From: Methanomicrobiales archaeon | GTDB taxonomy: Archaea > Halobacteriota > Methanomicrobia > Methanomicrobiales > Methanospirillaceae | Direction of reading: 5' to 3' | DNA: 47,687 nucleotides | Assembly (NCBI GenBank): GCA_025350045.1 | Contig: JANXYM010000028.1 | Coordinates: 1-47,687 of the forward strand | Shown here: piece by piece, positions 18,334-45,045 of the stretch | Layout of the letters: each line of letters opens with the position of its first letter | Position numbering within the stretch: the stretch's first letter is position 1 | The notes under the pieces: model-generated | What the model saw: the letters and a program-made list of their open reading frames with translations, nothing else | Told to the model about the DNA's origin: nothing | Database searches by the model: none | Made by a program: the position numbers and the translations under genes

Positions 18334-18358
18334 GAACCTACAGGTTCTAAATATTTAT
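18334..18358 (+). promoter_or_regulatory. Palindromic operator and TATA box of the NrdD-tail/cbiZ pair
   Basis: GAACCT and AGGTTC form a perfect palindrome with a two-base centre (18334-18347). It directly abuts a TATA element (TAAATATTTAT, 18348-18358). Transcription would start near 18380, so the ATG at 18383 is leaderless or nearly so. The palindrome occupies the BRE/TFB position, as expected for a repressor or activator site. The binding protein is unknown. Confidence 0.5.
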
Positions 18359-18382
18359 TAATGACCTGTGCGATGTTATAGT

Positions 18383-18745
18383 ATGGATTGGACAGCAGAT
18401 CATCGGAAACTGGCACAAAAATACAAGAGTGTAAATGAGATTCCGGAAAAGGAACGCAAATACAAGTGCCATACCTGCCACCACATTGTGGAGGAGAGCC
18501 CCTGTCCCGGCTGTGGTGAAACGCACTTGGAGATCATGTGCCCGCTCGATCACTGCCACTGCTCCCATGAGATTCTCTCAGGTATCGAATATTGTCCGCT
18601 CTGTGGCAAAGCGGTCTGCCCTGAATGCGGCTCCCATGATGTCACCCAGATCAGCAGGGTTACCGGTTACCTTCAGGATGTTTCCGGCTGGAATGCCGGC
18701 AAGCAGCAGGAACTCAAAGACCGGACACGTTATTCGGTTGCATGA
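18383..18745 (+). CDS. Stand-alone NrdD C-terminal (glycyl-radical/zinc) domain protein
   Basis: The 120-residue protein has four cysteine clusters: CHTC, CPGC, CPLDHCHC and CPLCGKAVCPECG. It then ends VTQISRVTGYLQDVSGWNAG and KQQELKDRTRYSVA. That end is the C-terminus of class III (anaerobic) ribonucleotide reductase: a four-Cys zinc site followed by R-V-x-G-Y with the glycyl-radical glycine, then WN.GK..E..DR. The catalytic barrel of NrdD (about 500 residues) is missing, and no stop-interrupted barrel lies upstream. By analogy with YfiD/GrcA, which replaces the damaged radical end of pyruvate formate-lyase, it could be a spare radical domain. It may instead be only a zinc protein derived from NrdD. 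It overlaps cbiZ by four bases. Confidence 0.65.
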   Translation: MDWTADHRKLAQKYKSVNEIPEKERKYKCHTCHHIVEESPCPGCGETHLEIMCPLDHCHCSHEILSGIEYCPLCGKAVCPECGSHDVTQISRVTGYLQDVSGWNAGKQQELKDRTRYSVA

Positions 18746-19617
18746 GATATTTCACTGATATCCATACTCTTTTCATCCGCGGTCCGTTCCGCGCTGCAAG
18801 TACCGGCATCAACGGCGGCATACGCCCGGTCACCACCCTCTTCAACCACACCGTTCCCGCGGGTTGGGACCGGTCTGAACCGGGAAAGGAACTCGACTTC
18901 GTCGCGGCAGGAGCCGGAATGGCACCGGACTTTTTCGGGCAGCTCACCACGGTACCGGTGCAGCAGTGCTGTGTGCTCCAGTACGATTTCATAACGGTCT
19001 TCATAACAGCCGGGATACGGCGCGAACCCCCGGAATCTGCCGGGACAATAAACATCATCGTCACCAGCAGCACAGGTATGGAGGATGCAGCCCTTCTCGA
19101 AACGATCATGGTGGCAACCGAGGCAAAGGCAGAAGCCCTTGCAGCACTCGGCCTCCCGCTGAGCGGCACACCGACCGATGCAGTGATCGCGGCCTGTGAA
19201 GGTGAGGTTACGCAAAAGTGTGCCGGGAGGCTGACCGAGACCGGGCGCCGGGTGCGTGCTGCCATACTCCACGGTATCCCGCATGCAATCCAGCGTCATG
19301 ACAGCGAAGGTAAGGACCATCAGCCATCATTTTTTGTTTTCAGCCGGATCAAGGGTGAACACTGGGTGGAGTGGACACCCCACAACTGTCCCTATTTTCC
19401 CTGCCACTTTGCCGGCCAGTGCTGCGACTTCTGCTACTGCCCGTTCTATCCGTGCACGGATGAGAATCTCGGTCTGTGGTCAGCAAGTTCCAATGGCAAC
19501 AAGGTATGGAATTGTGCGGAGTGCACGCTTCTCCATGAACCATCAATCGCCGAGTACCTGAAGAGAAACCCTTCGGCTCTTCTTGCTGAACTCAAGGCAC
19601 GGCAAAAAAAGAAATGA
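18742..19617 (+). CDS. cbiZ: Adenosylcobinamide amidohydrolase fused to a cysteine-rich domain
   Basis: CbiZ cleaves the aminopropanol side chain of salvaged cobinamides to adenosylcobyric acid, so external corrinoids can enter archaeal B12 synthesis. Residues 1-185 carry the CbiZ pattern (AASTGINGGIRPVTTLFNHT; GTINIIVTSSTGMEDAALLE; ATEAKAEALAALGLPLSGTP followed by TDAV). Residues about 205-275 are a separate Cys-rich module with CPYFPC, CCDFCYCPFYPC and CAEC, resembling the small cysteine-rich domain family (COG2158). It probably binds metal or a cluster. Fusion of the two is less usual than CbiZ alone. The start overlaps the stop of the NrdD-tail gene (ATGA). A B12 link is plausible since methanogens depend on corrinoid methyltransferases. 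Confidence 0.85.
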   Translation: MRYFTDIHTLFIRGPFRAASTGINGGIRPVTTLFNHTVPAGWDRSEPGKELDFVAAGAGMAPDFFGQLTTVPVQQCCVLQYDFITVFITAGIRREPPESAGTINIIVTSSTGMEDAALLETIMVATEAKAEALAALGLPLSGTPTDAVIAACEGEVTQKCAGRLTETGRRVRAAILHGIPHAIQRHDSEGKDHQPSFFVFSRIKGEHWVEWTPHNCPYFPCHFAGQCCDFCYCPFYPCTDENLGLWSASSNGNKVWNCAECTLLHEPSIAEYLKRNPSALLAELKARQKKK

Positions 19618-44427: not shown

Positions 44428-45045
44428 ATGACAGCAAACAAGATGTATTCCCTTCCTGCACTGCCGTATGATTATGCAGCGCTGGCACCAGCCATATCCG
44501 AAGAGCAACTCCGGCTGCACCACAGCAAACACCACCAGGCATATGTCAACGGGGCAAATGCAGTCCTTGAAAAACTGGATAAAGCACGAAAGGAGAATCT
44601 CGACCTTGACATGAAAGCAACCCTCAGGGAGCTGGCGTTCCATCTCGGGGGAAACCGAATGCACACCATGCTCTGGGAGAATATGGCACCTGCCGGTAAA
44701 GGCGGGGGCGGGGCTCCTTCCGGAAAACTTGGCGAGATGATTGCAGAAGAGTTTGGATCGTTCGAGCGATTTAAAAAAGAGTTTACCCAAGCGGCAAACA
44801 GCGCCGAAGGGTCGGGATGGGCAGCACTCACCCTCTGCCCGGGTACCCTGCGCCCCCTGATCATGCAGGTGGAGAAGCACGGCGTCAATACGTACCCGTT
44901 CAGGATTATCATGGTGCTCGATGTCTGGGAGCACGCCTACTATGTGGATTACCGGAATGATCGGGCAAAGTATGTGGAGAATTTCTGGAATATCGTAAAT
45001 TGGGATGTCGTAAACAAGCGGCTTGCTGAGGCACTGAAAAAATAA
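44428..45045 (+). CDS. sod: Superoxide dismutase (Fe/Mn type)
   Basis: The enzyme disproportionates superoxide and protects oxygen-sensitive enzymes. The 205-residue protein carries the four metal ligands: His in [15 protein letters not shown], His in [13 protein letters not shown], and Asp and His in [28 protein letters not shown] is the usual strand before the C-terminal ligands. There is no signal peptide, so it is cytosolic. Fe or Mn use cannot be told by eye. GGAGCGTGAAATTAC before the ATG gives a ribosome site. Presence in a presumed strict anaerobe points to oxygen-stress tolerance. Confidence 0.97.

Follow-up and report, generated by a model that had tools for sequence, protein, structure and literature searches.

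Genomic context of the tail gene

We analysed a stretch of 47,687 nucleotides (the window) from a Methanomicrobiales genome. It carries at 18383..18745, on the forward strand, a gene for a 120-residue protein that its translation and a match to the Pfam family NRDD identify as a stand-alone glycyl-radical domain (GRD) of class III ribonucleotide reductase (RNR). Orthologues of this protein, referred to here as the tail, occur in 123 of 150 genomes of the order. A TATA-like element at 18348..18361 (forward strand) lies approximately 30 bp 5' of the ATG, and the sequence suggests that the tail has its own, nearly leaderless transcript. The first-pass annotation of this DNA had credited the gene with an operator-like promoter of its own. 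The TATA-like stretch can be seen again by eye in orthologues, and the palindrome in question, GAACCTACAGGTTC, is present and exact in the window (18334..18347, unstranded). Of 76 named orthologues, just 6 have its arms, GAACC-N4-GGTTC, in the upstream region, and on that count a conserved operator before the tail was rejected.

The downstream gene (18742..19617, forward strand) encodes a protein with a CbiZ domain (Pfam, E = 7.4e-31) and a Cys-rich zf-like domain (E = 5.7e-28). The tail's stop overlaps its start as ATGA (18742-18745), an arrangement repeated at 63 of 76 orthologous loci. The overlap couples the radical part of a class III RNR to a cobinamide-salvage gene, and class II RNR uses that cofactor. 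The syntenic place of the tail is constant in nearly all of 80 named loci. Almost every named locus with flanks shows the arrangement deoxyhypusine synthase, pyrF, tail, cbiZ, DUF1858, OB-fold-like protein; deoxyhypusine synthase, CbiZ and DUF1858 were assigned by Pfam, pyrF and the OB-fold-like protein by eye. A C/D-box-like element stands just 5' of the tail gene in 43 of 76 named loci (for example L052:1391-1445). At three loci tested, Rfam returned sR41-like and related hits that fell short of the gathering score; at the window's own locus it found no C/D-box-sRNA-like element. The window also encodes, as had been noted, an iron/manganese superoxide dismutase (44428-45045), about 26 kb from the tail.

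Sequence and conservation of the tail protein

Residues 67-117 of the tail match positions 507-562 of the 562-position NRDD profile (E = 7.9e-15), scoring 55 bits against a gathering score of 26.2 bits. The protein also matches the end of the TIGR02487 NrdD model (E = 1.4e-14, under that model's whole-protein cut-off), and residues 77-116 align with the class III RNR 8p23 of the PDB (E = 4.5e-7), which we take to be the NrdD of Prevotella copri. No catalytic barrel is present in the 120-residue frame. With the motifs as claimed and the NRDD score above threshold, the initial description of a free-standing NrdD radical domain is upheld.

The additional N-terminal cysteines reported in that description are likewise real: C29, C32, C41, C44, C53 and C60 are, together with C71, C74, C79, C82 and G95, invariant in 45 sequences of the order. 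The first four make up a zinc-ribbon-like segment (C29-x2-C32 ... C41-x2-C44; 18467..18514, forward strand) that presumably binds metal. The remaining cysteines follow at 18539..18628 (forward strand) as C53 ... C60 ... C71-x2-C74-x4-C79-x2-C82, the CxxC-x4-CxxC part being the signature of the stand-alone family. In the tail this part reads C71-PLC-GKAV-CPEC, giving the pairs CPLC and CPEC ahead of the radical loop, and its four cysteines are invariant in a 15-sequence alignment of order, viral and outside-order stand-alone tails.

The radical loop S91-R-V-T-G95-Y (18653..18670, forward strand) is invariant in the 45 order sequences and aligns with RITGY of 8p23; V93 is replaced by I in some outside-order relatives. 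The glycyl radical is predicted to sit on G95 (18665-18667), and this glycine, whose conservation the first-pass annotation had made a test of its reading, is conserved in all aligned orthologues. The C-terminal segment W103-NAGKQQELKDR114 (18689..18724, forward strand) was defined by translation and the alignment of 15 sequences, in all of which W103, N104, K107, E110, L111, K112, D113 and R114 are invariant. The segment WNAGKQQELKDR is present in the tail alongside S-R-V-T-G-Y, CPLC and CPEC.

The dN/dS ratio of the tail against seven relatives is 0.04-0.12, indicating purifying selection; the tail is therefore a gene under selection, far beyond chance, and not a mere fragment, as had been proposed. 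Structure prediction was only fair (pLDDT 73, and 52-61 over the radical loop and C-terminus), and a fold search with this only fair model gave no match in the PDB at E ≤ 0.001.

The zinc-ribbon-like segment bears on a reading in which the tail has been repurposed as a zinc-binding regulator or as the partner of another enzyme, the truncated NrdD described below being inactive or working otherwise. It is an extra segment and matches zinc-ribbon families in Pfam weakly, below the cut-off, with weak similarity to the zinc ribbons of Spt4 and PolD, as such a reading would have it. Against this, the radical glycine and the C-terminal segment are invariant.

The truncated NrdD of the same genome

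The genome to which the window belongs is assembled in 121 contigs and is 95.9% complete. It holds exactly two NRDD matches, the tail (profile positions 508-562 in this search) and a 728-residue ORF on contig C31 (positions 1-511); no full-length NrdD was among them. The C31 ORF, with the ending ...QWVPSDIPAKA*, stops 38 residues from where its GYFAFT motif begins and is without the Cys pair, the radical loop and the GRD. Class III RNR is regarded as one chain bearing both active site and radical. In this genome barrel and GRD do not share a polypeptide, and the active-site and finger-loop cysteines sit in the C31 partner.

The same truncation is found across the order. Setting aside contig fragments and matches broken up by insertions, the barrels of the 150 order genomes end at profile position 500-524, and the sole full-length match is an additional 569-residue NrdD in one genome (G001). 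In an alignment of 31 order barrels with 13 full-length NrdD3 proteins, C185, C411, C414, C415 and C453 (L001 numbering) are present in 31/31 and 13/13, respectively, and the two zinc cysteines adjoining the radical loop are present in 0/31 order barrels. The finger loop CYQCCAYQF occurs in all 31, fitting the QCCA motif given for NrdD3; PMC9669993 describes this subtype by a QCCR/A finger loop with neither the Met nor the active-site Glu. Two full-length NrdD3 proteins of other families share 64% and 67% identity with the barrel of the present genome. The 31 order barrels form one clade in a tree, with modest support (0.55), and this grouping suggests a single fission behind them. C685 (L001 protein), which lies shortly before the truncation point, is found in 31/31 order barrels and 0/13 full-length NrdD3, and might serve docking of the tail.

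The first-pass annotation had read the tail as a spare part in the manner of YfiD/GrcA, replacing the oxygen-cleaved C-terminus of a full-length NrdD, and had made that reading depend on a full NrdD in the genomes that carry the tail. The precedent is sound for pyruvate formate-lyase (PFL), with YfiD and T4 Y06I as examples (PMC8683613), and the superoxide dismutase in the window is in keeping with it. However, the only NrdD of this genome stops short of the radical domain, and a full-length protein that could be cleaved is lacking here and in nearly all of the order, save for the additional one in G001. Because no full-length NrdD was found, we reject the spare-part role for this organism.

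Some barrel ORFs of the order are about 1160-2008 residues long, with long insertions, probably inteins, that interrupt the match to NRDD around profile positions 53 and 260. Insertions of this intein-like kind, inferred in many order NrdD ORFs, would lend colour to the idea that the two halves are joined post-translationally by a split intein, an idea we consider together with that of a frameshift or assembly artefact. Neither sits well with the large distance between the halves in many species whose genomes are single contigs. Moreover, no intein remnant is visible by inspection in the short unrelated stretch that closes the barrel, and the tail starts with its own Met and the zinc-ribbon-like segment. 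We regard this explanation as very improbable, the least likely of those considered.

Other likely parts of a class III system are also encoded. A 99-residue ORF with a YCPNC motif, NrdH-like by eye, lies upstream of the C31 barrel, and a match to the activase NrdG2 (TIGR02495) exceeds the cut-off on contig C64, so that tail, barrel and NrdG2 fall on three separate contigs. Outside the order, an NrdG2 match lies directly 3' of full-length nrdD in four genomes (G453, G178, G323 and G315).

A class I/II-type RNR large subunit, probably of class II in the order genomes, was found in 26 of 29 genomes checked, and no such match was found in the three others, namely the present genome, G178 and G323. 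Three checked genomes of the present organism's genus have such an RNR, and its absence here may be a draft gap or a real loss. Since most order genomes checked have another RNR, the split enzyme is not necessarily essential. As a partner for the tail, PFL or one of its relatives was also considered and was rejected, no PFL-like enzyme being found in any of 28 genomes.

Joint occurrence of the two halves

We searched 150 Methanomicrobiales genomes separately for barrel and tail and tallied the results by hand. Both halves were found in 118 genomes, the barrel only in three, the tail only in five and neither in 24. The five tail-only genomes, which lack a strong barrel match, are 62-85% complete, and the barrel-only genomes are G038 (71% complete), G086 (93%) and G139 (84%). 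Within a high-quality subset of 109 genomes, 97 have the barrel; 96 of the subset have both halves, one has the barrel only and 12 have neither. The exception is G086, where pyrF, the tail's usual 5' neighbour, is cut at a contig end, at the point where the tail should come next; the tail site is therefore not assembled in this genome, and its barrel is truncated too. Named tail matches come from Methanoregula, Methanoculleus, Methanolinea, Methanospirillum, Methanofollis and unclassified Methanomicrobiales, and on these names we equate the order with Methanomicrobiales.

All 24 genomes without both halves belong to a single genus (g24). Eight g24 genomes gave weak tail matches, with E-values between 1.5e-5 and 9e-4 and for the most part in ORFs 1142-1162 residues long; these were not counted. 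NrdG2 exceeds the cut-off in 14 of 16 genomes and is absent from two g24 genomes that lack both halves, and all nine g24 genomes checked have the class I/II-type large subunit. This genus appears to be a natural case in which the entire class III system was lost while another RNR, seen in the nine genomes checked, was kept.

The survey bears on each of the readings. The truncated barrel and the tail share one pattern of retention and loss, which speaks further against a spare part, a reading we hold to be improbable in this organism. A repurposed tail could draw on the finding that most order genomes checked have another RNR; yet the barrel keeps its active-site cysteines, the 28 genomes offer no PFL-like enzyme as an alternative partner, and g24 lost barrel and tail jointly, with NrdG2 missing from the two g24 genomes checked. 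We judge repurposing to be less probable again than the spare part. Sequence comparison establishes the complementarity of the two halves, their joint presence and absence, their conservation and the selection acting on them. Support from an operon is absent, because the two genes are far apart: in the single-contig genomes examined the nearest pair is separated by approximately 17 kb, and the distance is usually hundreds of kb or more.

Together these data favour a split enzyme, and we place at roughly 87% the probability that a class III RNR of subtype NrdD3 is split here and that the tail, encoded apart, is its glycyl-radical subunit, with the 728-residue C31 NrdD as partner. For this organism, an obligate subunit of a split enzyme appears a better reading than a spare part.

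Stand-alone tails outside the order and on virus records

A profile search of 392 genomes of the phylum, 309 of them outside the order, revealed a short stand-alone tail ORF in at least 11 outside-order genomes. All 11 carriers checked also have an NrdD with its own tail (that of G431 is broken over two frames), so that members of the family are not always an obligate half. These carriers count in favour of the spare-part reading, and such a role is possible for the outside-order relatives that accompany a full-length NrdD. There the tail's role appears to be facultative, since G359 belongs to the genus of seven carriers yet shows no tail among the matches listed. One 88-residue stand-alone tail (L213; G421:C15:205000-224500) lies near two integrase-like ORFs and a primase-like ORF, all recognised by eye, and may belong to an integrated or mobile element of G421.

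The outside-order short tails have the same CxxC-x4-CxxC just N-terminal to the radical loop as the order tails. With four fragment entries (L164, L165, L189 and L234) left out of the count and the tree, the motif is present in 93/93 order, 12/12 viral and 11/11 other stand-alone tails (116/116 unique sequences), and in 0/26 tails of full-length proteins. For the tree the order tails were thinned from 93 to 31, leaving 54 stand-alone tails to be compared with the tails of full-length proteins. The stand-alone tails form one clade against the full-length tails (support 0.78), evidence that is only moderate because the alignment is short.

Scanning IMG/VR with the order's tail gave six loci, and a wider scan gave 21. 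These 21 and one further record, from a barrel scan of viral contigs, make up 22 virus records, in which an NRDD search found the tail only in 13 (frames of 109-157 residues; two of the 13 have identical tails) and a longer NrdD in eight, one record (G479) being unclear. The virus counts exclude G464, a record of the first scan with only a short partial match, and G479, which was not counted as a stand-alone tail. The barrel scan itself returned that one record, whose 871-residue frame also covers profile positions 486-562. Full-length NrdD genes of several kinds were seen on the virus contigs G473, G474, G476, G477 and G478. When phage and plasmid collections were searched, no match reached 80% query coverage, and most of the matches bore an NrdD annotation.

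At six of the seven virus loci tested, flanking genes fall into terminase, portal, baseplate, primase or helicase families, judged from ten chosen proteins. A tail without a barrel on these records fits action in trans, but a missing barrel is no proof where records are fragmentary. At one locus (L201), nothing but the tail is substantially similar to order genomes; its DNA is 87% identical to that of G001, which suggests that the virus took its tail from such a host. In the tree, the viral tails L226 and L227 group with outside-order tails and the others with those of the order.

Discussion

These observations allow us to propose how the two halves might work. We infer that the tail binds the barrel, is activated in trans and supports catalysis together with it. 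In such a scheme the tail would fold around its zinc site or sites and dock on the barrel where other NrdDs have a covalent GRD. The radical-SAM activase NrdG2 would then make the radical on G95, and this glycyl radical would oxidise the finger-loop cysteine of the barrel to a thiyl that starts NTP reduction, with the NrdH-like protein re-reducing the active site. The GRD of P. copri NrdD (residues 676-739) is described in PMC11226230 as a separate, mobile unit after the core, and a division at the boundary of core and GRD is therefore physically reasonable. That covalent GRD resembles the tail in having a zinc site followed by a radical loop, and differs in belonging to the NrdD chain. Because the CxxC-x4-CxxC signature differs, the tail's docking may differ from that of covalent GRDs.

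The closest relatives of the system are the full-length NrdD3 enzymes, which share with it the QCCA finger loop, a radical tail with RVTGY and WNxGK..E, and the NrdG2 activase. Unlike in those enzymes, the radical domain here is a protein encoded at a distant locus, with an extra zinc-ribbon-like segment and another cysteine signature. An earlier report of a split NrdD3 was not found in the open-access literature searched, and one may nonetheless exist.

Two other systems invite comparison. YfiD/GrcA of E. coli and Y06I of phage T4 are, like the tail, free glycyl-radical domains of approximately 13-14 kDa that would act in trans, and they too include a viral form. However, the tail's domain is NrdD-like by Pfam NRDD rather than PFL-like, and in the order it is the barrel's only available radical domain and no duplicate. 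According to PMC8683613, spare parts are validated only for PFL and are possible for other glycyl radical enzymes. The second system is the split class II RNR of Pseudomonas aeruginosa, NrdJa/NrdJb, which differs in using adenosylcobalamin and in having a second piece without a radical. It is alike in comprising two polypeptides, with a cysteine-rich C-terminal part in the second (PMC9669993).

For annotation, the present case is a warning that truncated NrdDs are not broken genes. It also makes the modularity of glycyl-radical enzymes directly testable, by mixing the barrel with host or viral radical domains, and the relatives found beside full-length NrdD are concrete candidates for spare parts of enzymes other than PFL. 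With only a tail gene, a virus would have an unusually compact means of acting on host dNTP synthesis.

More tentatively, and at slightly less than even odds, one clade of free NrdD radical domains may act as a plug-in, serving as the obligate and cheaply replaced radical carrier of a split NrdD within the order, as a spare part outside it, and as a virus gene that drives or repairs the host barrel. If this were true, oxygen would destroy a 13-kDa piece and not an 80-kDa chain, and tailed archaeal viruses would use the tail for dNTP supply via the RNR barrel of the host. For the methanogens themselves, a whole order appears to keep radical storage and catalysis on separate proteins, as in class I RNR.
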